DNA from: Sulfurimonas sp.
GTDB lineage: Bacteria; Campylobacterota; Campylobacteria; Campylobacterales; Sulfurimonadaceae
DNA: 43,785 nt
Reading direction: 5' to 3'
Assembly: GCA_002899765.1 (NCBI GenBank)
Contig: PPDH01000025.1
Coordinates: forward strand, 108,198 to 151,982
The position numbers were made by a program, and so were the translations under genes. Below are positions 1 through 43,379 of the stretch, piece by piece. The notes under the pieces are model-generated. The model was given only the letters and a program-made list of their open reading frames with translations, was not told the DNA's origin and searched no databases. Numbering within the stretch: position 1 is the first letter of the stretch; every line of letters begins with the position of its first letter.

Positions 1-99
1 ACTAGTGTCAAGTACCATGGAGTATTTTATTACTATGCCCTACTTACAGTTGTTTTAGAAAGCATATCGATTAAAATTAGGTGCGAAAGCTCAGTAAAT
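1..99 (-). repeat. Left copy of 99-bp inverted terminal repeat; probable rRNA operon leader
   Basis: Bases 1-99 are the exact reverse complement of 43687-43785; the match stops at base 100. On the minus strand a TATTAT box (117-112) lies 12 nt before the repeat, so transcription would run outward off the contig. The repeat contains TGCTTTCTAAAACA (64-51 on the minus strand), resembling the boxA antitermination element of rRNA leaders. No convincing ORF occupies it. I infer the start of an rrn leader cut at an assembly k-mer; an IS end cannot be excluded. Confidence 0.75.
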
Positions 100-201
100 T
101 TATTAAACAAGATAATAGTACAATCACGAAAAAGTTTGATTATAATGATTCCTTAAATGGAACACTTATTGTATGGAAAATAAAGATATCAGGAGAGATT
201 A

Positions 202-528
202 ATGACAGTTTATAATTTTGCAGAAAAATTTTGTAAAGCACCAGGCCCACGAACTGAAAATATTGGTCCATGTTCTGGAGAAAAATTTAGAGTAGAAGTA
301 CTAGAAAAATGGTTTGAAGCAGGCGATCCAATTGAAATTGATGTATCAGATACTGTTTTAAATTTTGGTCCATCATTTTTATCTGAGGCTTTTGGAAAAA
401 TTGCTATTAAATTTGGAGAGAAAAGGTTTTATGAAATCATTCATGTTTCCGACAAAGGCAATAGAAATAAAAAATTAAAAGAATTAATTATCAAGCATGT
501 AACTATTGCTTTATCAAAGTCAAAATGA
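202..528 (+). CDS. STAS-like DUF4325 family protein
   Basis: A 108-residue soluble protein. The N-terminal segment with PGPRT followed by SGEKFR, then a hydrophobic strand (IEIDVSD) and the GPSFLSEAFG motif, match the DUF4325 (STAS-like) family as I know it. These are small proteins of unknown biochemical role, often beside signalling or defence genes. The start has a good AGGAGA ribosome site 7 nt upstream, and a TATAAT box at 141-146 could drive it. The stop overlaps the next ATG (ATGA at 525-528), so the two genes are translationally coupled and probably act together. It sits in the accessory end of the contig. The family call is fairly sure; the function is not known. Confidence 0.7.
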   Translation: MTVYNFAEKFCKAPGPRTENIGPCSGEKFRVEVLEKWFEAGDPIEIDVSDTVLNFGPSFLSEAFGKIAIKFGEKRFYEIIHVSDKGNRNKKLKELIIKHVTIALSKSK

Positions 529-896
529 CTTCCTCTGATACTATTGCATCTATCGCTGTTCTTTTTTCTATTGGAAGTTTTGGTTATACAATTTACTCAA
601 ATAACAAAAACAATGAAAATATAAAAACAAGAGAGCAATTAAGTTATCTAAAATCGTTAAATAGGATAGTTAAAAGTATCACATATGAAACAGATTCAAA
701 TATTAAAGAATCAACCTTAGATACATTAAGAGATGAATTAAATTACTGTACATGTTATGACAATAAAGTTGAATTTGAAGACTTTTCAGCTAATGTTGAT
801 GACTTTTTCTTTGCAATGACCTCTGCTTCATCTAAAAATGATTATTCCGATTTAAAAGAAAAATGTTTAAACGAAATACAGAACTTCAAGCCATAA
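525..896 (+). CDS. Small membrane-anchored protein coupled to the DUF4325 gene
   Basis: I do not recognise this 123-residue protein. Residues about 7-25 form one hydrophobic segment (SIAVLFSIGSFGYTIY), followed by an Asn/Lys-rich stretch and a mostly helical, acidic soluble domain of about 95 residues, so it looks like a single-pass membrane anchor with a cytosolic tail. Its ATG overlaps the stop of the upstream gene, which argues for a stoichiometric pair. No catalytic motif or Cys pair with an obvious role is visible. It could be a membrane effector or anchor for the STAS-like partner; that is inference from context only. Confidence 0.6.
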   Translation: MTSSDTIASIAVLFSIGSFGYTIYSNNKNNENIKTREQLSYLKSLNRIVKSITYETDSNIKESTLDTLRDELNYCTCYDNKVEFEDFSANVDDFFFAMTSASSKNDYSDLKEKCLNEIQNFKP

Positions 897-980
897 TATT
901 TTTAAAAATATAACAAAACCTAGCACCAAACAGGAAACCTGTCGGTTAAGTCAAACGTTAAGTTTCTAAACCTCTTATAT

Positions 981-1077
981 TTGGAACACAAAGCACTCAA
1001 GTGAATTTTCGGTGTTCCAAAAAGCGTTCAAAAAGTAAAAACTGCAAAGTTCCACAAACCTTAAGGTATTATGGAAC
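981..1077. repeat. Two nested inverted repeats built on TGGAAC
   Basis: The gene-free stretch 897-1134 holds TTGGAACAC (981-989) facing GTGTTCCAA (1012-1020). It also holds GTTCCA (1049-1054) facing TGGAAC (1072-1077), with a perfect inner palindrome ACCTTAAGGT (1058-1067). The second can fold into a long cruciform. It lies just past the 3' end of the leftward coupling-protein gene, but no clean T-run follows on either strand, so a plain terminator is only one option. Confidence 0.5.
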
Positions 1078-1134
1078 AAAAAAAGTGAGCTTTTAAATTA
1101 TATATTTAAAGCTTCATCGGCGAACAAAAAAAGT

Positions 1135-2913
1135 TTATGCAATATACTGAGATGATATTGTTTGCTCTTTCCCAGCTTGATTAAAATATGGAAAATCTCT
1201 TCGAATCAATGGGTCACATATCCTTGCACTCTCTTGATATCCAAACTTAATCTTACTCACTGGAAAGTTCCCGATTTTAATAAACGCTTGTAGTTGTTCA
1301 AGGTTAGCAAATTCACTCTCCAGCACAATTTTTTTGATCTTCTCTTCTTCACTCTCGTTGATTCTATCTTGTTCGATTTGAGTGGCTCGATTGATTCCCT
1401 GCTTTTTGCGATCAATTTCCTGTTCTCCTAAAAATTGGCTCAAAACCTTTTGTCCGTATGGTTCACTGTATTGAAGAACGATCTTTGTTCCGCACATTTG
1501 AAACAGTGACTTCAAGAGATTATCTCCAACTACTTCATTTGCCTGAGTCAAACCCTGAAATGCTATGAGTGCATTTAAGCCTTTACTTCGACTTTCTGCT
1601 AATGTATTGATAAGCTCAGATATCAAATATTTTCCAAGAGCTTTGTTATTGGTAGCAAGACTCATCAGCTCATCTAGCACCCAAACAATTCTTCTTGTCT
1701 TGGAGTTTGGCAATGAGAGGATATGTTTATAAAGCAAGGTAAAAAACAATCCGAAATAAAGATTGTACGCTCCTGATTGATCAGATGTATTTACAATAAA
1801 AAGGCGAATATCTCTGTTTTTATCTCTAAGTAAATCTATAAACTCTCTGACTGAAAAATCACTCTCTTCATAATAAAACGCACGGTTAGAGAGATTTTTG
1901 AACACTTTGTTACATGTTGCATAAACCGAGGTTGCTTGATTATCCAATGCACCTTTCGAATCTACCGTGAGAGCACCTATAACAGTGTTGTCTACTCCAA
2001 ACAGTTTCACAGTAGAATTATTTATCAACGCCTCTCTTAATCCTTTTGGCGTTGGATGTGCTCTTAAAAAATCGATTAGGGATTTGTTTGTTGCATTGTC
2101 ACTTCCTGCAACTGCAAGCAAGACAGCTTTTATTACACTTTGCGCTTGTTCTTCAAAGTGTGATGCTTTTGAATCTGATACTGGCGCAATAGAATGCACA
2201 AAGAAGTCCACCATTATTTCATCTATTGCACCATTTTCATCAAGCATATCATTGAAAATATTCCACTTTATACAATCTCTGTCTCTCGGATCAAAGAGAT
2301 AATCTTGTCCTCTTCGATACAAAGGTGCAACGAAATCATCACCTTTTCGCTCATAGCAGATCAGCGGCTCATTGAAATCAACGATCCCACCTGAGAGCTT
2401 TTTCCCTTTCTCATTGACGTTGCCAAGCAATAGGGAATAAATTGATTGTGATTTTCCCGAGCCTGGCATACCGACAAAGAGAGTATTCTTGACTTCTTGT
2501 GAGTATGGGATAGGTATTTGCTCAATACCAACCGTAAGCCTATATGTATCGTAAGGTTTTCTGAGCGCTTTTAAAATATGTTTTCGTAAACTTTTTGCAT
2601 CAAGCAGCTGCGATCCTCTTTTGAATATCTCTTCTTTCGTTTGATTAAATCGAAACAAGATGAAAAGTGTAATTATCCATGATGGCAAAAAGTATGTTAA
2701 AAACACTGAAAAGTGAGGTATTAAAAAGCCTCTCAATGTTTGCTCATAGAGCCAAGAACTGATCCCTTCAATATGATCAGGCATAAAATCAGCGATGTTG
2801 ATATATGGCAATGGGATCTCTATCCTTGTAATCGCAAGACCAATTCCAAATCCTATAAATGTTGCTATTACAGTAGCGGTTCTAAATTTTCTGCCAAACT
2901 CTATATGTGTCAT
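1135..2913 (-). CDS. VirD4/TraD-type type IV coupling protein
   Basis: This 592-residue protein is an inner-membrane ATPase that would deliver the relaxase-DNA complex to a conjugation pore. Two hydrophobic segments lie at about residues 13-29 and 63-87, followed by the ATPase core. Walker A is GMPGSGKS (148-155) and Walker B is IVWVLDEL (D414, E415), followed by a region (TLAESRSKGLNALIAFQG) typical of the VirD4/TraD/TraG fold. It is the last gene of a leftward block with the relaxase and accessory genes. No mating-pair-formation genes are present, so the element is probably mobilizable using a helper's pore. A GAAGGAAG ribosome site precedes the start, only 10 bp after the upstream gene. 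Confidence 0.85.
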   Translation of the reverse strand: MTHIEFGRKFRTATVIATFIGFGIGLAITRIEIPLPYINIADFMPDHIEGISSWLYEQTLRGFLIPHFSVFLTYFLPSWIITLFILFRFNQTKEEIFKRGSQLLDAKSLRKHILKALRKPYDTYRLTVGIEQIPIPYSQEVKNTLFVGMPGSGKSQSIYSLLLGNVNEKGKKLSGGIVDFNEPLICYERKGDDFVAPLYRRGQDYLFDPRDRDCIKWNIFNDMLDENGAIDEIMVDFFVHSIAPVSDSKASHFEEQAQSVIKAVLLAVAGSDNATNKSLIDFLRAHPTPKGLREALINNSTVKLFGVDNTVIGALTVDSKGALDNQATSVYATCNKVFKNLSNRAFYYEESDFSVREFIDLLRDKNRDIRLFIVNTSDQSGAYNLYFGLFFTLLYKHILSLPNSKTRRIVWVLDELMSLATNNKALGKYLISELINTLAESRSKGLNALIAFQGLTQANEVVGDNLLKSLFQMCGTKIVLQYSEPYGQKVLSQFLGEQEIDRKKQGINRATQIEQDRINESEEEKIKKIVLESEFANLEQLQAFIKIGNFPVSKIKFGYQESARICDPLIRRDFPYFNQAGKEQTISSQYIA

Positions 2914-2923
2914 CTTCCTTCAC

Positions 2924-3241
2924 CTACGCTATAAAGGAATGATTCTGATTGCTGAGTTTAGTTGTTTCACTGTTACGAATATCACTTGGTGTATTACATG
3001 AAATATCCATAGTTTTATTGCGTTCAATCATTGTATTTGCATAGGTAAGTAGAGCAGTTATCACTAAAGTAATATAAAGCAGTAAGAGTGCTGCTAATTT
3101 CGAGAAGCTGAGAGGTATAAAGAGCACAATAACGATCAATATCACCCATAATGCTACTGTGATATACAGGAAAAATTGTTTTAGTGGCATAGTTGTATGT
3201 TCAGCTGCAAAGTCATTCAATTGTTCTAAAAATGTTTTCAT
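2924..3241 (-). CDS. Small two-helix membrane protein of the mobilization block
   Basis: A 105-residue protein that I cannot assign to a named family. Residues about 25-45 (LYITVALWVILIVIVLFIPL) and 49-68 form two membrane segments. A short N-terminal helix and a polar C-terminal tail of about 35 residues would both lie on the same side of the membrane. It sits between the relaxase and the coupling protein with short gaps on both sides, all on the minus strand, so it is probably co-transcribed. A helper of the coupling protein is a reasonable guess, from position only. Confidence 0.55.
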   Translation of the reverse strand: MKTFLEQLNDFAAEHTTMPLKQFFLYITVALWVILIVIVLFIPLSFSKLAALLLLYITLVITALLTYANTMIERNKTMDISCNTPSDIRNSETTKLSNQNHSFIA

Positions 3242-3252
3242 TATTGTACTCC

Positions 3253-4149
3253 TTATAGTGAAAGTAAAGTTTGATTTTCTTTGTCATTTGATTGATTCAT
3301 CTGTTTTTCAAAAGATTGATCACGACCATTTTCTAATTTTTGCTCTTGCAACAGTTCATTCGTTTTTTCTCCGACAGTCTGCTTAAAAAGTTGGAGATGC
3401 TCTTTTGTCATATTGATTTCATGGCTTTTGCCATGACTCAATACATGTGCGTGAATCTGGTCGGTATCGGTATGGATTGCATAAACATATTTAAACTGCT
3501 TCCCTGATTTTTCTTGAAACTCTTGTAGTGACTCTCTAACCAAGCGATTCATGTCATCACGATCTAAATCGCTTTGACCAACATCGATGACTGTTCTGCG
3601 AAATGCATCTACACCAGCATTGAGATCTTGTTTTAGCTTTTCATATTCATCTTTGCTCATTCTTTCGCCATCTTCATCATAAATATTAGATAGGGATGGA
3701 TTATTCTCTAAATCTCTTGCTCCGTGATTTTCCATATAGCTTAGATTTGCCGATGCATGTGATCCCAATGTTTTAGCGTTGTTGCGTTTTCCCTGTTTGT
3801 TCAGTCTACCTGCCATTTCGAAATTTGACTTAACAATAATAGTCTGCTTGTTTACAACAACTCCACCCTTACTTGTATGATTTGCAATAGAACTGCTTTT
3901 ATTTTGAGACGCAGTGGTTATAGTATTTTTGCCAAAGCTCATATGAAAACTGCTACCTCCTCTTATTGATGCACTATGAGACGCACCAAACGAATGATGC
4001 GATCCACCACTTGAATATGAATGTGTAGAGATTACGGGTTTTGAAAAACCGCTTGAACTGTGAGATGATGAAGATGGCGATCCTTGTTTGGATGTCATCT
4101 GTCGTTTCAGGCACTCATCGAATGGCATTTCTGGTGGACAATCAATCAT
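3253..4149 (-). CDS. Compact relaxase with three-His motif (MOBP-like)
   Basis: A relaxase nicks one strand at oriT and pilots it during transfer. The metal-binding HxDxxxxHxH motif is present as HTDTDQIHAH (H226, D228, H233, H235). The upstream segment ANLSYMENHGARD looks like motif I, with Y138 as the likely nucleophile. Residues 20-90 are a Ser/His/Gly-rich low-complexity tract, unusual because relaxases normally carry the catalytic Tyr near the N-terminus. At 298 residues it is short and lacks the long C-terminal domain of large relaxases. The ATG overlaps the end of the ribbon-helix-helix gene by 8 bp and has an AGGAGG ribosome site. The relaxase call is firm; the exact MOB class is inferred. 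Confidence 0.75.
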   Translation of the reverse strand: MIDCPPEMPFDECLKRQMTSKQGSPSSSSHSSSGFSKPVISTHSYSSGGSHHSFGASHSASIRGGSSFHMSFGKNTITTASQNKSSSIANHTSKGGVVVNKQTIIVKSNFEMAGRLNKQGKRNNAKTLGSHASANLSYMENHGARDLENNPSLSNIYDEDGERMSKDEYEKLKQDLNAGVDAFRRTVIDVGQSDLDRDDMNRLVRESLQEFQEKSGKQFKYVYAIHTDTDQIHAHVLSHGKSHEINMTKEHLQLFKQTVGEKTNELLQEQKLENGRDQSFEKQMNQSNDKENQTLLSL

Positions 4150-4528
4150 TGTTGTATCCTCCTTTTAAATCATTCATGCACTGCTTTATTCCTGATCCAT
4201 AAATAGTGTCGAGTTCATCTTTCTGAATAGTTCCCTCTCTAACTGCTGCTGTAATTGTAACTCCATATATTTTTCCAAGAGTTCGTGATTGACCAATTAA
4301 CACACTGATTAAACGATCAGTATTTTTCTTATCGGCATCAATAAATCTATTGATATGTTGTGTGACTCTATCTGCTAATTGTTCAGCGATTTGAGTGTTC
4401 TCTAATCCCCGTAAAATTAGATATTCAACAGCTTGTGAAAGTGAATTACCGCTGTGTGCAGAATAAGCTTTCACTGCTTCAATTGTCTCTTTTGACAATG
4501 TATAACTCTTTACTTGTTTTTTGTTCAT
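4142..4528 (-). CDS. Ribbon-helix-helix relaxosome accessory protein (MobC-like)
   Basis: This 128-residue protein begins with a basic strand and helix pair (KQVKSYTLSKETIEAVKAYS) followed by GNSLSQAVEYLILRGLE, the pattern of ribbon-helix-helix DNA-binding proteins. Such proteins bind oriT and assist the relaxase, and often repress their own operon. I chose the internal ATG at 4528 over the longer frame (4597) because AAGGAGG sits 5 nt before it. The 3' end overlaps the relaxase start. The C-terminal half (about residues 60-128) is helical and probably oligomerizes. It is the promoter-proximal gene of the leftward mobilization block. Confidence 0.65.
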   Translation of the reverse strand: MNKKQVKSYTLSKETIEAVKAYSAHSGNSLSQAVEYLILRGLENTQIAEQLADRVTQHINRFIDADKKNTDRLISVLIGQSRTLGKIYGVTITAAVREGTIQKDELDTIYGSGIKQCMNDLKGGYNND

Positions 4529-4670
4529 AATAACCTCCTTAATAGTTTTTCTCATAGTGAAAGATGTCGCAATAAGCAAAACAACTTTCAGTAACAAGTA
4601 TATAATATTAATAAATATTAATCTTTTTATTTATAAAAAAATATTTTATTCTTTTGAAAATTCTCGAAAA

Positions 4671-4722
4671 ATAGGGTCCCCTCTGGGGTAAAGCTATAAA
4701 TGCTATGAGCATTCTTATAGCC
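4671..4722. other. Candidate oriT: paired hairpins upstream of the mobilization genes
   Basis: The 490-bp gap between the mobilization block and the rep gene holds a CCCC-TCT-GGGG hairpin (4678-4688). A larger stem follows at 4693-4721, pairing GCTATAA with TTATAGC and ATGC with GCAT around a TATGA loop with a 2-nt bulge. Inverted repeats next to the accessory and relaxase genes are where an oriT is expected. I see no match to a named nic consensus, so this is a positional prediction. The rest of the gap is AT-rich and must also hold the leftward promoter. Confidence 0.4.
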
Positions 4723-4988
4723 CTTATCTGTGCCATCCTCTCTTTCTTTTTATTCTTATCTATAAATATATCTATTCAATCTTTATCATCCAGTGCAAAA
4801 ACTATCCCAAAAAAAGACGTAAAGAAGATGCTTTTAAGGCTTTTTTGGACCTGGTATGAATAAGAGTCTATATTCCTTATCTTTTCTATTTATCAAGACT
4901 AACTTTCTTCAGTATCAAAACAATAATACTGTTAGACCGTCACAAATACACAAAAAATTCTACTTCTTATATTTTTTAAATCTCGCCC

Positions 4989-5009
4989 ATATTACATATT
5001 ACATATTAC
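4989..5009. repeat. Three tandem copies of ATATTAC
   Basis: The 7-bp unit ATATTAC occurs three times without interruption, about 80 bp before the replication initiator gene. Short AT-rich direct repeats at this place could be initiator-binding or strand-opening repeats of a plasmid origin. Three 7-mers are too few to be sure. Confidence 0.4.
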
Positions 5010-5045
5010 AAGGAAAATAAATAATCAACACATCTTAACCATTAG

Positions 5046-5086
5046 CCCTTTTAGGGTTGCCCAAAAAATAACAGGAGCAACCCTAC
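5046..5086 (+). promoter_or_regulatory. Mutually exclusive hairpins over the rep ribosome site
   Basis: AGGGTTGC (5053-5060) is the exact complement of GCAACCCT (5077-5084). The ribosome site AGGAG (5073-5077) lies in the loop and touches the second arm, and the ATG is at 5087. The same AGGG can pair instead with CCCT at 5046-5049, giving a small upstream hairpin. The two folds exclude each other, as expected for a switch controlling initiator translation. The pairing is seen; the regulation is inferred. Confidence 0.45.
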
Positions 5087-6214
5087 ATGACTATAGATTT
5101 AACCGACGACAACGATGCATTATTAATGCTTCTTCTCAGAAGCCTACCAACTAAAATCAAAGCTGGCAATGAAAAACATTTGTCTAATATTCGTACATAC
5201 CCCACTGTTGTAGCATTAAAAACATGTAAATTCATTAACTTTAATTCAAAATATAAAATATCTATGATGATATTTGATATTGACGAATTCAGAGATAAAA
5301 CAGCATTGGAGTATTTTAAAAATATAAAAGGTTTTTTAGAATACATTATAGAAAAAATAGGATGCGAGCCTACATACGTTTTAGAAACGCAAAAAGGTTT
5401 TCACTTCGCCTATCATCTAAAAAATCATGTATTTATGCATCAGCCAAAAGCTGTGACATACTTACAAAATATCAAAAAAGCTATAGGTGAAATTTTAGGT
5501 TGTGACCCTATCGCTTCTAATCGCCTAAACGGCGTCTGGCGAAATCCGTTACTCCACACATCATATTTCTCGGAACAAATAAATTATAAATTAGCAGATT
5601 TTAAAATTTTTCTGCCATCTCATCAAAAAAATAGAAGAAATACTTCAACGAAAGTAAAAATTAACGAGACACAACTTACAGAGGGAAACAGAAATGCCTA
5701 TCTGTTTGAATGTGCAATGCGTCACGCCAAAGGATTTTTATTGCTCACCACAGAAGAAATTCTTATTTTTTTAGAAGAAACAAATAGAAGATGTGAGGTG
5801 CCATTGGCATCACAAGAATTACCATCAATCGCAAGATCTGTTTATAAATATTGGTCACAAGGAAAGATAAGATTTGGCGATATCATAAAAAACAATATCA
5901 ATGAAGGAATAATGGAGTTTGAAAAAATGGCTAATCTGTCTTTTGATGAGTACCAAAAAGAAACCAAGCGGAGACAAAGATTATCAGCATTGCGAACCAA
6001 CGAGCTTAAGAATAAAGATAATATTGATGGACAACTTGCACAGGCTCGTGAAGCTTCAAGCATAAAACGAGAAGCTGCCGCAAAACGTAAAATTCAAAAA
6101 GCAATCAATTTTTTGAATCAGGAAAGTATCAAAGTGACAATAACTAGCATTAGCAAAATTACTGAACTTGATAGAAAGACAGTAAAAAAATATTATGAAA
6201 ATGTATCTTGCTAA
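5087..6214 (+). CDS. Plasmid-type replication initiator (replicase/PriCT-1-like)
   Basis: This 375-residue protein has the layout of plasmid replicases of the ColE2 Rep type. The N-terminal catalytic part includes MMIFDIDEF (about 60-68, acidic metal-binding pattern) and ETQKGFHFAYHL (about 99-110). A helical PriCT-1-like segment follows at about 200-265 (EGNRNAYLFECAMRHAKG onward), then a charged coiled region. It ends in a helix-turn-helix (residues about 340-372, ITSISKITELDRKTVKKYY). It would prime or initiate replication at a local origin. With a relaxase and coupling protein next to it, it makes this end of the contig look like an integrated mobilizable plasmid. The family is assigned from motifs and could be a related primase. 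Confidence 0.65.
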   Translation: MTIDLTDDNDALLMLLLRSLPTKIKAGNEKHLSNIRTYPTVVALKTCKFINFNSKYKISMMIFDIDEFRDKTALEYFKNIKGFLEYIIEKIGCEPTYVLETQKGFHFAYHLKNHVFMHQPKAVTYLQNIKKAIGEILGCDPIASNRLNGVWRNPLLHTSYFSEQINYKLADFKIFLPSHQKNRRNTSTKVKINETQLTEGNRNAYLFECAMRHAKGFLLLTTEEILIFLEETNRRCEVPLASQELPSIARSVYKYWSQGKIRFGDIIKNNINEGIMEFEKMANLSFDEYQKETKRRQRLSALRTNELKNKDNIDGQLAQAREASSIKREAAAKRKIQKAINFLNQESIKVTITSISKITELDRKTVKKYYENVSC

Positions 6215-6293
6215 ACAATGCCTTTTTATATATTTGATAACAGATTTATTTGCAATCAGTATAATTGATATTGATTGCAAAGGTTCTTATCGT

Positions 6294-7211
6294 TTATGAT
6301 TCAAACTGAAATATTTCTGGTTGATAAGTATGATTATTAGCAGCATTGCCAGATAGATTTTGTTGATATATCTTAATGATTTCAGGTTTTGTGAACCATG
6401 CCACGCCACCGCTTACTGACGATAAGCCATTCCATATGATTAATCTAAAATTATTTTTAATAGTTTCTATATTAATACCAGGTACCACTTTAATGTAGTA
6501 ACCACGATTATTGGCTGATGGTATTTCTATTGGATTGGAAGGTGCGGCACCTTTTATAAAAAAGTCATAATCCTCTTTTGTGGCAAAACTAAAATGATGA
6601 GATTTTTCATATTTAGTTGGATCAAAGCGTAAGCAATCGCCTTCGCTTCTTTCAAATACAAAAAATGAACATGGTACATGATAAGACTTTCCATCCAATA
6701 GAAAAGAATCATCGGGCAAATTTAATATTTTTTTTAATCTGAAATCTGATGGAATAGCTTTTTGCAGAGTATATTTTTGAAATACGTCTGGCAATACAAA
6801 GGCGATAGTCTTAACATTCGCAAACGAAGCCGCATGAGCAATGAAAGCCTTACTCAAATTATTGCGCTTCCCAAAAGGAGGGTTTCCGATTACAAGAACA
6901 CTTTTATATTTTGGATCTATTGTATAGTTAAACCAGTCTTGCTGTGTGATTAGCTGGTTGTCTTCTGGTAATAAGTCAATACCTTCTTTATTATCGTGAT
7001 TAATTTGATCAAAGAAACTGCCGTTACCAGCTGATGGTTCTATAATAAAATCATAATCGTTTAATTTTAATTGTTGTATGCATTGTAAAGCTATATATGG
7101 TTTGGTATAAAATTTATCTAAATCTGCTTTATTACTATATATGCCGTTCAGATTATTTAATACTTCAATTTTATTGTTTGCGCATCCTTTTGTTGATTTG
7201 TTATTTTTCAT
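6294..7211 (-). CDS. Orphan DNA adenine methyltransferase (NPPF type)
   Basis: A 305-residue SAM-dependent methyltransferase. Motif I is EPSAGNGSF (about 58-66) and the catalytic motif IV is NPPFGKR (about 110-116), the signature of N6-adenine methylases. A downstream Phe-rich block (PCSFFVFER) fits the same fold. The start at 7211 is preferred over the longer frame because AGGAGG lies 7 nt before it. No restriction gene is adjacent on this strand, so it is probably a solitary, plasmid-style methylase that marks or protects the element. It faces the rep gene convergently with an 80-bp gap. Confidence 0.75.
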   Translation of the reverse strand: MKNNKSTKGCANNKIEVLNNLNGIYSNKADLDKFYTKPYIALQCIQQLKLNDYDFIIEPSAGNGSFFDQINHDNKEGIDLLPEDNQLITQQDWFNYTIDPKYKSVLVIGNPPFGKRNNLSKAFIAHAASFANVKTIAFVLPDVFQKYTLQKAIPSDFRLKKILNLPDDSFLLDGKSYHVPCSFFVFERSEGDCLRFDPTKYEKSHHFSFATKEDYDFFIKGAAPSNPIEIPSANNRGYYIKVVPGINIETIKNNFRLIIWNGLSSVSGGVAWFTKPEIIKIYQQNLSGNAANNHTYQPEIFQFES

Positions 7212-7249
7212 AAGTGTTCCTCCTTTTAGGTATAAAACATTAACACTTA
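7211..7249 (-). promoter_or_regulatory. Inverted repeat enclosing the methyltransferase ribosome site
   Basis: On the minus strand TAAGTGTT (7249-7242) is complementary to AACACTTA (7218-7211). The second arm follows AGGAGG (7224-7219) directly and ends on the A of the start codon. The ribosome site would sit in the loop next to a paired start. The arrangement mirrors the one at the rep gene, with different arm sequences. Confidence 0.4.
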
Positions 7250-7459
7250 TATTTTCAGAAAACAACCCACAAATTAAAAATTATTTTTAAAAAATTTTAT
7301 AGATCATTAAAGTTTTATCAATGTTAGAGAAAAAATTTGTATATTTTTTAAAAAAAACAGCTTGAAAGAAGATATTATTTGAAGCTAAAATTGCTAAAAT
7401 TAGACTAATTATTACAATAGATAAGATTCGAGAAATTTTTCAGAGCCAGAAGTTAAGCA

Positions 7460-7564
7460 ATGGAACTTTCAGATGATGAAAAGCTCCAATATCTAAAACT
7501 GAAATAAGAATACCCTGAAAAAAAGCATCAGAAGACTCTATTAATAGACAAGGCAAATAAATGA
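7460..7564 (+). pseudogene. Small ORF before mod, interrupted by TAA
   Basis: From ATG 7460 a frame reads MELSDDEKLQYLKLK, then TAA at 7505-7507, then EYPEKKHQKTLLIDKANK and a TGA that overlaps the mod start as ATGA (7561-7564). The overlap and the charged, protein-like sequence on both sides of the stop suggest a real 34-residue gene with a GAA to TAA change. A chance ORF remains quite possible, since the ribosome site is weak. The rest of the gap 7265-7459 shows only AT-rich DNA. Confidence 0.35.
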
Positions 7565-9519
7565 AACACCTTAAACAAGACATACTCACACAAGAATCAA
7601 TCAACGAGCGCAATATAGCTCTGTTGCGAGAAAATTTTCCTGGAGCTATCGAAGAGAATATTGATGGCAGTTTCACGGTCAATGCGAATAAACTGCAAAT
7701 GCTCATAGACCCTAAAAATGCGACCATAGAAGAAAACGGTTACGAACTCAACTGGGTTGGAAAAAAAGAAGCCTATCACACGGCATTCAGCAAAAACACC
7801 AAAATCCTTAAGCCTCTCAAAGCCGATAGCAAAGACTTTGACACGACCGAAAACATCCTCATCAAAGGGGACAACCTCGATGCCTTGAAAATCTTGAAAA
7901 ACAATTATTTTGAAGCGATCAAGATGATATACATCGACCCTCCTTACAATACTAAGAGTGAGAATTTTGTCTATCGTGATAATTTCACCAAATCACTTGA
8001 AGAAACGATGGAGGAACTCGGTTATGATGCCGAAAACATTGATTATATCAAAAATATTCAGGGGGCTAGAACCCACAGCGGTTGGCTCAGTTTTATGTAT
8101 CCTCGCCTTCTTCTTGCCCGTGATTTGCTAAAAGATGAAGGTGTTGTTTTTATCAGCATAGATGATAATGAGCAGGCAAATTTAAAAGTCCTTGCCGATG
8201 AAGTATTTGGAACTGGAAATTTTATCGCTAATTTGTCAGTTATAATGAATCTAAAAGGCAACCAAGACTCATTTGGTTTCGCTGATACTCACGAATATAC
8301 ATTAGTCTATGCCAAAGACAAAAATAAATGCTCATTGGGCGTTTTTGATATTGATGAAGATGAGTTAGATGATTGGACGGAAGATGACTGGGGACTATAC
8401 AAAAAGGCCGATACCCTCAGAAGAACAGGGCAAGACGCTTCAAGAGAAAAACGTCAAAAAGGATGGTTCCCTATCTTTATTACAGAATCTGATGAAATTT
8501 ATGTCTCAAATGATGACCAACCAAAAAATCAAAACGACATTATATTGTGGCCAATAAATGAGGATGGCGAAGAACTGTCTTGGACTTGGAGCAAAAAGAA
8601 AATTACAGATGAGCCACACAATCTAATTCTAACCGATGGACGGCAGGGAAAGAATATTTATAAAAAACAACGACCAAAGCTGGGTGATTTACCTACAAAA
8701 AAACCCAAAAGTGTGTTCTATAAACCTGAATATAGCACCAGCACAGCAACAACACAATTAAAAAATCTACTTGGAAAAAAAGTTTTTGACGGACCCAAGC
8801 CTGTTCCATTTATTAGCGACTTAATTATGTTAGCAACTCAGGAAAACGACATCATATTAGATTTTTTTGCCGGTAGCGGAACGACTGGGCATAGCGTAAT
8901 GAAATTTAATGCAGAATACGAACAAAATCGTAAATTTATACTTATTCAATTACCTGAAATTATTAGTTTAAAAAAGAACAAAGATGCTTATGAATATGTA
9001 GAAAAAACACTCAAAAAAACAACTTCAACAATCTTTGAAATTACTGCTGAGCGATTGAGACGAAGCGGAGAAGAGGTTAAAAGCATGTATAAATATCTTG
9101 ATAATATTCAAAATCTCGATATTGGATTCCGTGTATTCGAAATCGTTAAAGACGAAAAGCAAGCCATTTACAAGAAGAGCCTTGAAGAGGCGAGCCAAGC
9201 AGACTTAACCTTGCTAACAATGCCTCAAATGGAAGATATTGATACCGTTCTTTATAACCTTCTTGTAGCCGAAGCGCTACCTCTGAGCACAAAAATCAAC
9301 TGCCTGAAAGAGAACGCTTTTTATATCGCTGATAATGTTGCCTTCATTGTTGGAGACATCAAATTGGAAGAAGTCTCCAAACTTCTCGCAGAACATAAAA
9401 AGGTCGAATATATCACCATCTATTCACCGCTGGTTAATGACAATAAGTTTTCATTGGAAGTGGGAAATGAATTAACTCGACTTGGATTCAGTAATGATAA
9501 ACTGCGATTTAGAGGATAG
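7561..9519 (+). CDS. mod: Type III restriction-modification system, Mod methyltransferase
   Basis: The 652-residue Mod subunit recognises the target site and methylates adenine on one strand. It also gives the restriction complex its specificity. The beta-class order is clear: motif IV DPPYN (126-130) comes before motif I DFFAGSGTTG (434-443), with the variable target-recognition region between them (about 215-400). The phrase ILIKGDNLDALKIL ahead of DPPY is typical of this family. No simple-sequence repeat tract is visible, so there is no sign of the phase variation known in some mod genes. The stop is 5 bp before res, forming a two-gene operon. It may have the small interrupted ORF as a coupled leader. 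Confidence 0.92.
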   Translation: MKHLKQDILTQESINERNIALLRENFPGAIEENIDGSFTVNANKLQMLIDPKNATIEENGYELNWVGKKEAYHTAFSKNTKILKPLKADSKDFDTTENILIKGDNLDALKILKNNYFEAIKMIYIDPPYNTKSENFVYRDNFTKSLEETMEELGYDAENIDYIKNIQGARTHSGWLSFMYPRLLLARDLLKDEGVVFISIDDNEQANLKVLADEVFGTGNFIANLSVIMNLKGNQDSFGFADTHEYTLVYAKDKNKCSLGVFDIDEDELDDWTEDDWGLYKKADTLRRTGQDASREKRQKGWFPIFITESDEIYVSNDDQPKNQNDIILWPINEDGEELSWTWSKKKITDEPHNLILTDGRQGKNIYKKQRPKLGDLPTKKPKSVFYKPEYSTSTATTQLKNLLGKKVFDGPKPVPFISDLIMLATQENDIILDFFAGSGTTGHSVMKFNAEYEQNRKFILIQLPEIISLKKNKDAYEYVEKTLKKTTSTIFEITAERLRRSGEEVKSMYKYLDNIQNLDIGFRVFEIVKDEKQAIYKKSLEEASQADLTLLTMPQMEDIDTVLYNLLVAEALPLSTKINCLKENAFYIADNVAFIVGDIKLEEVSKLLAEHKKVEYITIYSPLVNDNKFSLEVGNELTRLGFSNDKLRFRG

Positions 9520-9524
9520 GGGAA

Positions 9525-12467
9525 ATGGAATTAAAATTAAAATTCCAAAGACTTGACTATCAAAAGCAAGCAGTTGAGAGCATTTGCGGTGTTTTCAAAA
9601 ATATCCCGATTCAACATTCGTTTCAATCAGAAGCGAATCCCGCTTTTGATTTGGAAAGCACAAAGCATATCCTGACAAGCAATATCGAAGAGCAAAGAGC
9701 ATCCAACGGTGTTGATATTGGAGAAGTGCTCATTGACGATGCCTTGAATATAGATGTTTTGATGGAGACGGGGACGGGGAAAACCTTCACCTATATCGAA
9801 ACGATTTATAGGCTTTACAAAGAGTATAAGCTCTCCAAATTTATCGTCCTCGTTCCCAGTAATGCGATTCGTCAAGGGGCAGTTAAAAACCTCGATATCA
9901 CCAAAGAATTTTTCCAAAAAGAGTATGGAAAGACTATCTCCATCTTTGATTACTCTGATAAAACCATCCTCAACTATATTAATAATTCGAATCAAAATAT
10001 TTCGGTGCTCATCTCGACTTATCAGTCGTTTAACAAAGAGACAAACACCATCAATAAAAATTCTGTAGAGAAGATTCTTATTGGTAAAGCCAAAAGCTAT
10101 ATGGGAGCACTAGCAGAGCTTCGCCCCGTCGTCATTATCGATGAGCCTCACCGTTTTGAAGGGAAGAAAACGGCTGAATACCTCACTAAATTCAATCCCC
10201 TCTTCACTATCCGATTTGGGGCTACTTTTAAAAACAAAGAGTATAAGAATCTTCTGTATATACTCGATAGCCATACAGCGTTTAAAAATGGACTGGTCAA
10301 AAGTATCACCGTCGAAACCATCGGCAATGAAAGCATCGATGCCCATACACTTAGGCTGACCGATGTCATAGGCTCGAAAGCTTCAGATTACAAAGCTTCT
10401 ATCAGCTATAAAGACATACATTCCAAAAATAAAACAGTCAAACTATCGGCGGGCGATAATCTGGGAAGTAAAGCCGAAATCGAATATCTCAGTGGCTATG
10501 TCGTTGAGAAGATTACTAAAAAAGAAGTCTTATTCACGAACGGATTTACCTTGCCAATCCAAGAAGATGCATCTTATGGAATGCTTCTCGATAATATTCA
10601 AAACTCTATTATCGAACAGACGATTGAGACCCATTTTGAGCGGGAAGAAATTCTTCACAAGATGGGAATCAAGGCATTGTCTCTCTTTTTCATTGACAGC
10701 GTTAATAAGTATCTATTGGATGATGGAAGCGCAGGAACACTCGCCAAAAGATTCGAAGAGCTTTATGCTAAAAAATTGACAGAGATACTGGCTAATGACA
10801 AACTTGATGAAGCGTATCGAAAATATTTGATGCGCTCCAAAAATAATGTCTCCAAGATTCATAAGGGCTATTTTGCCAAGTCAAACAAAGACAAAGAGCA
10901 AGAAGCGTCTATCAAGCTGATATTAGAGGATAAAGAACGGCTGCTCTCGTTTGATACCGACCTACGCTTTATTTTCTCGATGTGGGCACTCCAAGAGGGT
11001 TGGGATAATCCCAATGTTTTCACACTGTGTAAATTGGCTCCAAGCAATTCAGAAATCTCAAAACTTCAACAGATTGGACGGGGCTTGCGTCTGGCAGTAG
11101 ACCAAGAGGGCAATCGTATCACTCAGGAGCACGAATATTTTGACTTTGTTAATGAGCTGAATGTTATCGTTCCATCGACAGAGGGCGATTTTGTCGAATC
11201 CATCCAAAATGAGATTCAAGCAAACAGCATCAAAAAGTTTTCTCGAAAAATCGATGACAAATTGCTTGAAGAACTTGGAATCACAAGCAACACACGAACC
11301 GCTAATAAACTATTGGACTTGTTAAGTGAATATGGGATTGTCAATCTCGATGATGAAACGGGTGAAGCAGAACTCATCGCTTCAAGCAATGAGTATTTCG
11401 CATCGATTCAAAAGATTATGAGCGGAGCAAACGCAATAAAAGGGGTTGAAGCCGATAAGCTCAAAAACTACCTCGATGATTATTATATGAGTAAGAATAA
11501 GGTCAAAACGAAGCGAAAAGACACCAAACAAAGTATCTCTATCAATCAAGAGCACTATTCAAAGTTTAAATTACTTTGGGAAAATCTCAACAGAGATGCC
11601 ATCATCAAATACGATGTCGATACCGAAGTGTTAATCAGTGATATTGTCGCCAAAGTCAATGAGAATTTCATCATCAAAGAGCAAGAGATTATCATCTCGA
11701 CACACAAACGGGTCGAAGATGCGAATGCTAACGAAATGACAACCAAAAGAAAGAGTGTTGCGTATCACTCAGTTTTTACAATATATGAATTTATCAAAGA
11801 ACTTGCCAACGGCACAAAGTTGAGTTATCAGACAATCGCAATAATCTTACAAACCATCAAGCCTGAAAAATTTGCGATGTTAGCCAAAAATGAAAATCTA
11901 GCACTATTTAGACTCAAAGAGATTTGTCTAAATTCCCTCTATGAAGTCCTCTTGAATAAAATCTCGTATGAGATTAAAGAGATTAGAGCCAAGAAAACAA
12001 CATTGACCGACAATAAAGGCAATGCTCTTGATAGCATTTTGGCGGGTAGCTGTGGAGTTGAAGCTTACCCAATCAAAAATTCAGTCGTTAGAGCCAAATC
12101 ACTCTATGGCGAAGATTATATGGAAGTCGATAGCGGTATTGAAAAAACCACTATCGATGAATCATCTCTGGATGAGATAACCGTATTTGCCAAGCTTCCA
12201 AAGGTCAAAATCCCGACCCCTAACGGCACCTACAACCCCGACTTCGGTTATGTTATCAAACGAGATGGGAAGCAAGAGCTTTATATGGTGGTTGAAACGA
12301 AGGGGTATGATGACTTTGAGCAAATTGGCGATAGCGAAAAACTCAAAATCAAAAGTGCTGAAAAGTTTTTTCAGACCTTACGAGACAAAGGGGTAAATAT
12401 TCACTATGAAACGAAGCTCAACAATAAGCAATTAGCCGATATTCTCGGTGAAATCGAGAAAAATTAG
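9525..12467 (+). CDS. res: Type III restriction enzyme, Res subunit
   Basis: The 980-residue Res subunit is an ATP-dependent translocase and endonuclease that needs Mod. The helicase motifs are intact: Walker A METGTGKT (80-87), DEPH (206-209) and motif VI QQIGRGLRL (from 515). The C-terminal nuclease has PDFGY with D906 and VVETKG with E924 and K926, a complete PD-(D/E)xK site. Length is in the usual range of about 900-1000. A short spacer with a purine-rich ribosome site links it to mod. Both subunits appear intact, so the system should be able to cut DNA. It is cargo of the accessory region and ends shortly before the tRNA junction. Confidence 0.92.
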   Translation: MELKLKFQRLDYQKQAVESICGVFKNIPIQHSFQSEANPAFDLESTKHILTSNIEEQRASNGVDIGEVLIDDALNIDVLMETGTGKTFTYIETIYRLYKEYKLSKFIVLVPSNAIRQGAVKNLDITKEFFQKEYGKTISIFDYSDKTILNYINNSNQNISVLISTYQSFNKETNTINKNSVEKILIGKAKSYMGALAELRPVVIIDEPHRFEGKKTAEYLTKFNPLFTIRFGATFKNKEYKNLLYILDSHTAFKNGLVKSITVETIGNESIDAHTLRLTDVIGSKASDYKASISYKDIHSKNKTVKLSAGDNLGSKAEIEYLSGYVVEKITKKEVLFTNGFTLPIQEDASYGMLLDNIQNSIIEQTIETHFEREEILHKMGIKALSLFFIDSVNKYLLDDGSAGTLAKRFEELYAKKLTEILANDKLDEAYRKYLMRSKNNVSKIHKGYFAKSNKDKEQEASIKLILEDKERLLSFDTDLRFIFSMWALQEGWDNPNVFTLCKLAPSNSEISKLQQIGRGLRLAVDQEGNRITQEHEYFDFVNELNVIVPSTEGDFVESIQNEIQANSIKKFSRKIDDKLLEELGITSNTRTANKLLDLLSEYGIVNLDDETGEAELIASSNEYFASIQKIMSGANAIKGVEADKLKNYLDDYYMSKNKVKTKRKDTKQSISINQEHYSKFKLLWENLNRDAIIKYDVDTEVLISDIVAKVNENFIIKEQEIIISTHKRVEDANANEMTTKRKSVAYHSVFTIYEFIKELANGTKLSYQTIAIILQTIKPEKFAMLAKNENLALFRLKEICLNSLYEVLLNKISYEIKEIRAKKTTLTDNKGNALDSILAGSCGVEAYPIKNSVVRAKSLYGEDYMEVDSGIEKTTIDESSLDEITVFAKLPKVKIPTPNGTYNPDFGYVIKRDGKQELYMVVETKGYDDFEQIGDSEKLKIKSAEKFFQTLRDKGVNIHYETKLNNKQLADILGEIEKN

Positions 12468-12484
12468 AAGCGTTAACTCGCTTC
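12467..12484 (+). terminator. Weak stem-loop after res
   Basis: GAAGCG (12467-12472) pairs with CGCTTC (12479-12484) around a 6-nt loop, starting at the last base of the res stop codon. Only a weak T-content follows (CTTAGAATT), so termination may be poor or factor-dependent. Confidence 0.3.
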
Positions 12485-12596
12485 CTTAGAATTAATGAGT
12501 ATTATTAAAAGCATAAAAAAAAGGATCGGAATGAATGTGAAAAGTACTATCTTCAAAGTTAAACTATAAGATTAAATCTTGTAAGTATAGAAAAAC

Positions 12597-12774
12597 TGTG
12601 GAATAGGACAACAATCAAACTGTGCAATAGAAGAAAATCACTCAAAATTTTTTGTGCAATAGATTGTGCAATAAAGCTAACAATTTATGTGTATTATGAC
12701 AATTAATAGGCTATTGTGCAATAAATACAAGGTGAAATATTTGTTGAGTAAACAGGCTTTAATCGCCTTGTATT
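12597..12774. repeat. TGTGCAATA repeat cluster and 9-bp inverted repeat beside the tRNA junction
   Basis: TGTGCAATA occurs at 12621-12629, 12653-12661, 12665-12673 and 12715-12723, with a one-mismatch copy TGTGGAATA at 12597-12605. All are on the plus strand. Next to them AATACAAGG (12724-12732) faces CCTTGTATT (12766-12774). The cluster lies 100-220 bp from the truncated tRNA-Leu, where arm-type integrase sites of an attachment site would be. It fills most of the gene-free stretch 12485-12819. Plasmid iterons are the alternative. Confidence 0.55.
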
Positions 12775-12819
12775 AGGTGTTTTAAGAAGTTTTTATAATT
12801 GATTTTATATTTTCGGGTT

Positions 12820-12862
12820 ACGGATTTTGAATCCGCCGTGTATACCATTTCACCACTCTGGC
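12820..12862 (-). pseudogene. Truncated tRNA-Leu(CAA), 5' part only
   Basis: On the minus strand the sequence starts GCCAGAG (acceptor 5' strand). It continues with a D-arm (GTGGTGAAATGG) and a full anticodon arm with loop TTCAAAA, anticodon CAA. After about nucleotide 43 it turns into AT-rich DNA without variable arm, T-loop (no GTTCGA) or 3' acceptor CTCTGGC. A TATTAT box at 12879-12874 suggests the old promoter survives. A tRNA cut at the anticodon arm next to plasmid-like DNA marks an integration or deletion junction. Confidence 0.75.
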
Positions 12863-13003: not shown

Positions 13004-15166
13004 ATGAGAATTACAAGCAGCATGTATTATAACAGTATATATAGTCAGAGCAATGCGCAATTGAGTGAGAATCTTTTTGATGTAAACAAACAAATAGCGT
13101 CAGGTTTAAGTATCCAGTATGCTCATGATGATGTAAGGACATTTACTGAAACGATGAGGCTTGATAATGAAATAGCGGTACTTGGGCAGATAAAAAAAAG
13201 TACTGAAAGCGCCCTTAAGATGTCTAATCAGACGGATACGGTTTTAGGAGAATTTGAGACGTCGATGAACCGAACAAGGACGCTTCTTCTAAATGCGGCA
13301 AACGGCGCAAATAGCGAGACATCACTTGATGCTATTGCAGAAGAGTTAAGATCCATCGAAGATCATCTTAAAAATTTGGCAAATACATCTATAAACGGGC
13401 AGTACTTGTTTTCAGGCTCAGCCATAGATATCAGACCGATTACCGATGACGGAACATATATGGGCAATGATGGAGTGCTCAAAGCATTTACCGGTTCAAA
13501 AACATCTCAGCAGTACAATATAAGTGGAGATGAATTATTTCTTGGAGAGAAAAAACTTGTAAAAAGAGAGATAACTACAAATGTTGTTCAAAATAATTTA
13601 AGCGCTAAATATCCTGATTTTTTAGATACTACCGTTTCTGGAGTTTCCACTCCGATTACCCAAAGCAGCACTGTTCGTGATTTAATGGGTGACGGTGACA
13701 ACTTGGTTGACGCTGGAGTTGACAAACACTTTTTTTATATCAATGGAACAAAAAGTGACGGTACCTCTTTTAAAGAAAAAATTTCAATGAGCGATGATGA
13801 AAAAATCAGTGATCTCTTAAAAGAAATCGGTGATTTATATGGGAATACTCCAGAAGTAGATGTTGTAAATGTCAGTATGAATTCAAATGGGCAGATTGTT
13901 ATAGAGGATAAAATAAAAGGTTCAAGTAAGATAGATTTCCATATGGTCGGTGCTACAGATTTGCTTAACGGCGCAACAGCATTGGATGCGGCTGACATAG
14001 ACAATGCGGCTCTTTATGGTGCAAATGCAGGAAAAATTGATAATTTAGGCTCAGGCGAGACAAGCTTTGAAAAGATAATGTTTGGAACTTCTACTGCACT
14101 AAACCCTTCTTTACATGTTAAAGAGTTTATGAAATCATCCTTGACATCTGCGGGTAGTGTTTCGGCTGCGAATGCTATTGAGGGTACTATTTATGATAGA
14201 GCAGAGTTTCGTAAAGAGGGTTCTAGGATATCTTCGGCATCCCCTCAAATCATAAGAGAAACAAACGCATTTGCAACGGCTTCAACAAAGCTCTTTGATG
14301 TAGCAGACCTCTCTCAGGGGACTGCCGACACACTTGATGGCACCTCGTTTATAGTAGAGGGTACCGATATAAACGGAACTGCTTACAGCGCGCGGATTGA
14401 TTTGGCATCTGCAGGTTCGACATTTTCTATAGATACGAATTTAGACGGTGTTTATGACAACGGAACATATAATATTTATAATGTTGAAACGCCAAGAGCA
14501 GCTGTAGATGGCGATGATATGACATATAAACAGTTTATGGATGTCGTAAATATGCTTTCAACAGGTAATCTTCCTGCAACTGCTCCAGGAACGGCAACAG
14601 AGTATGACGGGGCGATTGAGACGTCTGACTTGATGGGAAGAACATTTTTAAGCCATGACGGTAAGATAGAGTTTGAAGAGATAAATAGCGGTAACACAAA
14701 AGCAAGCCTTGCTATTTATGATGCAAACAGCGGTAATTTTAGCGCAGATGCCTCTGTTATGACATTTAACACAAATAATGCGCTTACCGTACGTGACCCA
14801 AAGACAGATTTTTTTAAAACATTTGATGAAATTATTAAATCAGTTGAAAACTATAAACTCTACCCAGACAGCAGCTCCGGTGATGTAAGAAACGTGGGAA
14901 TTGAAAATGCAATTGCCATGATGGATGATCTTCAAGACCATGTTTATAGAGCGCATTCACAAGTCGGTGTACAGACAAACTCGCTAGATGCATCTACGCA
15001 AAGAGCGGCATTGTTGGAAATAAGTGCCATGAGTCTAAGGTCATCTGTAGTAGATACCGATTTTGCCGAAGCTTCATTGACTCTTGCTAGATTAAACACT
15101 AATTATGAGGCGATGCTCTCAACAGCAGCTAAAGTTTCAAAATTAAGCCTTGTTAATTATCTATAA
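13004..15166 (+). CDS. flgL: Flagellar hook-associated protein 3 FlgL
   Basis: FlgL is a flagellin-like junction protein joining hook to filament, exported by the flagellar type III system. The conserved N-terminal helical region (MRITSSMYYNS, then about residues 20-130) and the C-terminal helices (ALLEISAMSLRSSVVDTDF and the final 30 residues) bracket a large variable middle. That middle explains the length of 720 residues against about 300-450 in short FlgL proteins and is typical of this phylum. The longer frame from 12929 is rejected because it starts upstream of the sigma54 promoter; ATG 13004 has GGAGG 7 nt before it. It is transcribed alone and ends in a terminator. Confidence 0.88.
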   Translation: MRITSSMYYNSIYSQSNAQLSENLFDVNKQIASGLSIQYAHDDVRTFTETMRLDNEIAVLGQIKKSTESALKMSNQTDTVLGEFETSMNRTRTLLLNAANGANSETSLDAIAEELRSIEDHLKNLANTSINGQYLFSGSAIDIRPITDDGTYMGNDGVLKAFTGSKTSQQYNISGDELFLGEKKLVKREITTNVVQNNLSAKYPDFLDTTVSGVSTPITQSSTVRDLMGDGDNLVDAGVDKHFFYINGTKSDGTSFKEKISMSDDEKISDLLKEIGDLYGNTPEVDVVNVSMNSNGQIVIEDKIKGSSKIDFHMVGATDLLNGATALDAADIDNAALYGANAGKIDNLGSGETSFEKIMFGTSTALNPSLHVKEFMKSSLTSAGSVSAANAIEGTIYDRAEFRKEGSRISSASPQIIRETNAFATASTKLFDVADLSQGTADTLDGTSFIVEGTDINGTAYSARIDLASAGSTFSIDTNLDGVYDNGTYNIYNVETPRAAVDGDDMTYKQFMDVVNMLSTGNLPATAPGTATEYDGAIETSDLMGRTFLSHDGKIEFEEINSGNTKASLAIYDANSGNFSADASVMTFNTNNALTVRDPKTDFFKTFDEIIKSVENYKLYPDSSSGDVRNVGIENAIAMMDDLQDHVYRAHSQVGVQTNSLDASTQRAALLEISAMSLRSSVVDTDFAEASLTLARLNTNYEAMLSTAAKVSKLSLVNYL

Positions 15167-42699: not shown

Positions 42700-42705
42700 T
42701 TTGCA

Positions 42706-43058
42706 GGTACAACAGATAGTTACTTGATTGATTTCAAGAGGAAAGTCCGAGCTGCTATAAGACAGTGTTCCATTTAACTAATGGCCGTAGTAATACGAGG
42801 TAAAGTGCAACAGAGAGTAGACTGCCGTTTTAATAGCGGTAAAGGTGAAAGGGTGGTGTAAGAGACCACCAGTCTCTATAGCAATATGGAGAGCTTGTAA
42901 ACCCAACATGGCAGCAAGAAACAGATGGTCAGCGTCTTAATGGGAGGATTGCGGTGGAAACACTGCATCTCTTCTTATGCTACTGTTTCGCTAGAGTTAC
43001 TATGTAAATAGTAAAGTAGATTAATGCTATCAAAACAAAACTCGGCTTATGTTGTGCC
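42706..43058 (+). ncRNA. rnpB: RNase P RNA (type A)
   Basis: The catalytic RNA of RNase P, which matures tRNA 5' ends. GGTACAAC (42706-42713) pairs with GTTGTGCC (43051-43058) as helix P1. The universal core GAGGAAAGTCCG is at 42738-42749 and its P4 partner ACAAAACTCGGCTTA near 43035-43049. The internal GAGAGTAGACTGCC, GGTGGTGTAAGAGACCACC and AAACCCAAC segments fit the family. Length is about 353 nt, normal for bacteria. Ends are set by P1 pairing. Confidence 0.92.
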
Positions 43059-43379
43059 TATATAAACGTAACATCTTCTTAATATTTCTTAATATCAAGA
43101 CAAGACTACTCAACAAAAATCAGTATTACAACCTAACGGAGCACTCTTGAAAAAGAGATAATATTTTTTAAAGAGAATTTACATTATGTTAACCAATGTA
43201 TTAAATCAAGCAAGAAGTATATATATGTATTATCAAAATAACAGAATCATTGTAATACACTTCTGCTCTTAAATAAACTTCTTTTATAATCATAAACTTG
43301 TAGTGCAAACTTGCAATGGCGAGATTCTTAAGCTTTAGAAAGAATTTTAATTAAAAATATCATATATAAAGAATGCAAC
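43059..43379. other. Gene-free AT-rich gap after rnpB
   Basis: No ORF, RNA or strong terminator is visible. It contains short inverted repeats only, such as ATTCTT facing AAGAAT near 43323-43345. The promoter of the following small gene must be here. Confidence 0.5.

Follow-up and report, generated by a model that had tools for sequence, protein, structure and literature searches.

The window, a stretch of 43,785 nt from a Sulfurimonas sp. genome (G000:C2:108198-151982; assembly of 2.39 Mb in 45 contigs, 98.5% complete), contains a truncated tRNA-Leu(CAA) gene 142 bp from flgL. Read on the minus strand from 12862 to 12821, the stub is GCCAGAGTGGTGAAATGGTATACACGGCGGATTCAAAATCCG and consists of the acceptor 5′ strand, the D-arm and the anticodon arm with the anticodon CAA. 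Past position 12821 it gives way to unrelated DNA, with the break in the anticodon arm, and ARAGORN found no complete tRNA anywhere in the window. Elsewhere in the window lies an RNase P RNA gene of bacterial class A (42704-43064).

A search of the same genome returned a tRNA-like match 3.5 kb ahead of the window start, and the missing 3′ half of the host gene was located outside the window, 3.8 kb before base 1. The two halves share a 15-bp core in the anticodon arm, which stands as a direct repeat inside the tRNA gene at both ends of the intervening DNA. When rejoined, they give a perfect 84-nt tRNA-Leu(CAA) by ARAGORN with 7/7 acceptor pairs. The original prediction, made from the window's letters, had read the stub as a truncated tRNA at an integration junction separating mobile from core genes, and had advised looking for its 3′ half at the far side of the element; the 5′ half ending after the anticodon arm, the 3′ half and the shared core bear this out, as does the gene content on either side. 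Looking from the other end, the left junction reads ugd, host 3′ half, four GTGCAA repeats, a complete tRNA-Leu(CAA) and the integrase gene. The element measures 16,601 bp from core to core, with a G+C content of 33.4% compared with 36.2% in its surroundings (Table 1).

Table 1 Features of the element, its insertion site and the stacked stubs in relatives. Window positions count from base 1 of the window; C2 positions refer to the contig of G000.
Feature	Location	Strand	Evidence or remark
5′ half of host tRNA-Leu(CAA), nt 1-42, right end of element	window 12821-12862	-	42/42 identity to rejoined gene
3′ half of host tRNA-Leu(CAA)	C2:104375-104431		
15-bp direct-repeat core CGGATTTTGAATCCG, right copy	window 12821-12835 (C2:121018)	.	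sequence comparison of halves
15-bp direct-repeat core CGGATTTTGAATCCG, left copy	C2:104417-104431, ~3.8 kb before window base 1		sequence comparison of halves
flgL, host gene beside insertion site	window 13004-15166	+	
Part of the 16,601-bp element inside the window	window 1-12835	.	left 3.8 kb (integrase and spare tRNA-Leu) precedes base 1
Complete spare tRNA-Leu(CAA)	C2:104587-104669		ARAGORN; between integrase and host 3′ half
Tyrosine integrase, 384 aa	C2:104749-105903		PF00589 2.9e-19; phrog_1 integrase 3e-37
TraD/TrwB-type coupling protein	window 1135-2913	-	PF10412 5e-48; TraD
MobA/VirD2-type relaxase	window 3253-4149	-	PF03432 2.7e-7
Replication protein (Rep, PriCT_1)	window 5087-6214	+	3.3e-5
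Type II-like DNA methyltransferase	window 6294-7265	-	
Type III restriction-modification Mod	window 7561-9519	+	
Type III restriction enzyme Res	window 9525-12467	+	
Arm-type-like repeat cluster	window 12597-12723	+	TGTGGAATA at 12597 (one mismatch); exact TGTGCAATA at 12621, 12653, 12665, 12715
Second cluster, four GTGCAA, other end of element	C2:104470-104535		orientation as in window cluster
Stacked stubs, L162	G194:C8, 2353-2634		
Stacked stubs, L160	G151:C72, 2600-2822		
Stacked stubs, L163	G221:C118, 520-740		

Besides the genes in Table 1, the element encodes a HATPase-like protein, a STAS-like DUF4325 protein and a 90-aa protein without a family match, whose likeness to helix-turn-helix excisionases was judged by eye only. 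Pfam gave no match to type IV secretion channel families among the main ORFs of the element. By its predicted gene content, with a relaxase and a coupling protein and without mating-pair genes of its own, the element is an integrative mobilizable element (IME) with restriction-modification cargo. Relatives of its integrase in GTDB genomes belong to Sulfurimonas and its neighbours within Campylobacterota. In phage and plasmid records such relatives reach only ~25% identity, and the exact sequences of the spare tRNA and of the element ends had no match in IMG/VR.

Near the right junction, four exact copies of TGTGCAATA and one mismatched copy form a cluster in which all five repeats point the same way. 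In 300 order-2 Markov shuffles of the window, cluster size did not rise above 1, compared with the four exact copies within 110 bp seen here. TTGCACA-type repeats also occur near the element ends in G035, G177 and G209, and the present element has TGTGCAA clusters. The TGTGCAA or TGTGCAATA repeats at both ends are likely arm-type sites of the integrase, in agreement with the role first proposed for the cluster in the window, and we treat them as candidates.

The complete tRNA-Leu(CAA) at the left junction, in the following called the spare, is identical to the host gene at 56 of 85 aligned positions (66%). The host 5′ stub pairs with the 3′ acceptor strand of the spare at 4/7 positions, compared with 7/7 for the displaced host half. 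The 40 tRNA hits in the assembly include the class II members Leu TAA, TAG, GAG and CAA, three Ser and one Tyr. Because no second CAA gene is among them, the spare is the only tRNA-Leu(CAA) found in this assembly, a draft (45 contigs, 98.5% complete) from which another could be absent. Direct matching places a TATAAT box 27 bp upstream of the spare; the promoter scan listed no sigma-70 site for it. The host tRNA function is probably restored through this whole foreign gene and not through the usual 3′ fragment carried on attP. The original prediction had called the tRNA unrestored, which holds for the split gene itself but overlooks the complete substitute at the other end of the element. The intact genomic copy it had advised seeking does exist, yet it is the element's own gene, not a rebuilt host gene or an additional copy of the host.

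The empty site can be recognized in about 20 relatives lacking the element. There, the start of flgL is 119-173 bp away from an intact tRNA-Leu(CAA), the single gene of this type at the locus, and flgA often flanks the tRNA gene on the opposite side, at 53-119 bp. Thus flgL does lie beside an intact tRNA-Leu in relatives, as had been asked originally, and in none of these genomes was the truncated sequence seen next to flgL without the element.

We then searched for the same arrangement in other genomes, by BLAST with one query per anticodon, so that the number of cases is a lower bound. Among the integrase relatives from GTDB genomes, 11 of 13 loci have an orphan tRNA 3′ half ~100-190 bp beyond the integrase gene; these halves are cut at the anticodon loop and are of the types Leu-GAG, Val-GAC, Arg and Met. 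A stub, a whole spare tRNA-Leu and a displaced 3′ half occur together in nine genomes (G004, G144, G163, G005, G177, G209, G186, G252 from Sulfurospirillum and G253 from Malaciobacter), and further pairs of stub and spare in G133, G147, G151, G160, G186, G194, G209 and G221. The whole-spare design, for GAG or CAA, thus recurs in Sulfurimonas, Sulfurospirillum and Malaciobacter, which represent at least three bacterial families. In the Leu-GAG layout (G004, G144, G163, G005, whose two element ends lie on separate contigs, G252 and G253, Malaciobacter halophilus), the order is host 5′ half, a different complete tRNA-Leu(GAG), element, integrase and host 3′ half, with ~45-50 bp between the host 5′ half and the spare. 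The Leu-CAA version was found in G177, G186 and G209, and partly in G005 and G244.

All 12 tested pairs of stub and 3′ half, once joined, were called tRNA-Leu by ARAGORN, 11 of them with 7/7 acceptor pairs; the stubs matched the spares at 4-6 of 7 acceptor pairs. The exception is the CAA case of G005 (L100/L101; G005:C1:178306, 297610), where the halves are opposite in orientation, 119 kb apart and pair at 5/7 acceptor positions, which may reflect an inversion, two combined events or a misassembly. In every case examined, the anticodon of the carried tRNA equals that of the split gene (CAA at CAA sites, GAG at GAG sites). The architecture is also present in the single-contig genomes G144, G177 and G186, and in G144 the spare is the sole tRNA-Leu(GAG) found at E ≤ 0.1; sole-copy statements for single-contig relatives come from BLAST.

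The spares themselves appear to be mobile and persistent. A stretch of 136 bp, comprising the element end and the spare, is identical in Sulfurimonas G004 and in Sulfurospirillum, beside unlike host halves, and G177, G209, G156 and G175 share an identical spare tRNA-Leu(CAA). A decayed element lies by flgL in G156 (L175; C1:1545000-1553000, 2860-4885), where the 5′ stub is gone beside a transposase-like ORF and the phospholipase gene is truncated. The spare tRNA-Leu(CAA) is intact there despite this decay and is the sole CAA gene detected; in G175 the spare is present and the host halves are unrecognisable. The mobile identical spares and their survival in G156 and G175 suggest that the spare is functional and speak against tandem duplication of the host gene. 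In G194, G151 and G221, two or three 5′ stubs of tRNA-Leu(GAG), mostly trailed by similar element-end sequences, are stacked ahead of an intact spare. The simplest reading is serial invasion, with later elements inserting into a spare that an earlier element had brought. We had also considered the rule that the anticodon stem of the spare is always altered, so that the integrase could not cut it. This is true here and for most others, and was dropped as a rule because the G163 spare has the anticodon stem of the host and the stacked stubs show that spares are invaded.

Two further loci differ from this scheme. In G177 (L151; C1:2543000-2553000, 2992-7160), a 4.1-kb unit between the tRNA-Leu(CAA) halves carries a spare tRNA and no integrase; its cargo is a CD-NTase with a patatin phospholipase (CBASS) and a SoFic-like Fic protein. 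This unit may be mobilised in trans or may have lost its integrase. In G006 (L103/L104; C1:21994-22049, C55:14403-14442), the element that interrupts tRNA-Leu(CAA) encodes a different integrase and has GGTGTAC repeats, and neither a spare nor another CAA gene was found in this draft genome.

From this analysis, we consider it highly probable (about 0.88) that an element with a tyrosine integrase split the host tRNA-Leu(CAA) and that a whole divergent gene substitutes for it, in place of repair by an attP fragment. As read from the DNA, the gene is split and the element carries a spare, which is presumably expressed and functional. According to the published rule, islands entering tRNA genes rebuild their target with an attP-carried fragment of that gene (PMC4383910). 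Such classical restoration was indeed found where members of this integrase family target a Val tRNA (G130, G143; L124, L125, Sulfuricurvum; integrase 10001-11023), as well as in G117, G184 and G021. Judging from its two displaced Val 3′ halves (C15:3648 and 12966), G143 may hold a tandem array. It is very improbable that the present element is an ordinary island of this kind, with a restored host gene and the truncated tRNA as the displaced fragment. Both host halves are stranded, which rules out classical attP-fragment restoration at this site; no fragment completes either of them, and the intact tRNA shares only 66% identity with the host gene, with mismatched acceptor strands.

Many phages carry tRNAs, and the spare might likewise be a passenger that serves translation of the element's genes, the host surviving through tRNA-Leu(UAA). 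The host genome has a tRNA-Leu(TAA) gene, and UUG is possibly readable by tRNA-Leu(UAA) through wobble. We therefore do not claim that the spare is essential to the host. As an account of the spare, a passenger role is nonetheless unlikely, given the matching anticodons at all sites examined, the location of the gene close to the att core, at an end of the element, and its outlasting of the rest of the decayed element in G156. Since the host and spare tRNA-Leu(CAA) sequences lie only ~160 bp apart at the left junction, they could also be two tandem host genes, one of them broken by the element. The chance of this is as slim as that of the ordinary island: the locus holds only one such gene in element-free relatives, the two cores enclose the spare, and identical spares stand beside different host halves and in two families. 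Least probable of all is an artefact of the 45-contig draft assembly that fused unrelated contigs, as the halves match perfectly, share a contig and agree in orientation and flanks, and the layout recurs in the three single-contig genomes.

For the split with substitution by a whole gene, we propose the following course. Guided by the candidate arm-type sites, the integrase would swap strands in the anticodon arm of the tRNA-Leu(CAA) gene between flgL and ugd/flgA. The insertion has left the 5′ half with the old promoter at one end and the 3′ half 16.6 kb distant, and the divergent tRNA-Leu(CAA) of the element would take over decoding of UUG. The target would have to match only over the short anticodon-arm core, not in the acceptor stem or the variable arm of the host gene. 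A fragment must pair with the host acceptor stem and a whole gene need not, which would explain how the same element end suits hosts whose tRNA-Leu genes differ. Unless excision is precise, the host would then rely on the element for tRNA-Leu(CAA). It speaks against this course that the spare lies at the integrase end in the present element but at the 5′-stub end in its closest integrase relatives, the GAG group. In that group, the short spacer between stub and spare is usually without a -10-like box at a suitable distance, and transcription of the spare may start at the host promoter and run through the stub. Spares on the side of the 3′ half (present element, G244) have a TATAAT box 25-27 bp upstream. 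Because the promoter scan lists no site for the present spare, this division of promoters between the two spare positions is only a suggestion.

Among known systems, the islands of the Islander class with anticodon-site 'A' integrases (PMC4383910) are similar in their tyrosine integrase, anticodon-arm crossover, direct-repeat core and displaced fragment at one end. Unlike these, the present element strands both target halves and restores by a complete, divergent tRNA gene. The archaeal pTN3-type integrases, which target the 5′ half (PMC8371274), resemble elements with the spare at the integrase end in that the original promoter does not drive the working tRNA; pTN3, however, regenerates the original tRNA gene, whereas the host gene here remains in two parts and is replaced by a foreign one. 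IMEs with defence genes share the integrase, relaxase and coupling protein, the restriction-modification cargo and the lack of a type IV secretion operon in the scanned ORFs, but not the spare tRNA module. Tycheposons are likewise tRNA-bordered islands with a tyrosine recombinase; the summary in PMC10872708 gives them one bordering tRNA gene and does not describe a split target with a whole substitute. A study of tRNA gene fragments described partial plus complete copies (PMC9897764). In the searchable open literature, we found no description of whole-gene tRNA replacement.

The recurrent group thus breaks the rule of repair by fragments, in that a mobile tRNA gene takes the place of a core one, which is lost. 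Such islands could be misplaced or overlooked by tools that seek an intact tRNA together with a fragment of it, since here the fragment does not derive from the intact copy. We see even odds that these elements form a class in Campylobacterota hosts with a distinct target repair, one that breaks the host tRNA-Leu, substitutes its own gene, serves hosts across families, ties the host to itself, and whose spares are re-invaded or kept after decay. This could explain how one element uses hosts with unlike tRNA-Leu sequences, and it leads one to expect that the element and its defence cargo are strongly retained. If true, small integrase-less versions with defence genes, such as the unit with CBASS and Fic in G177, may move in trans. 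A gene of the translation machinery becomes part of the mobile gene pool, and persistence and re-invasion of spares would, if this holds, drive the horizontal turnover of tRNA genes.
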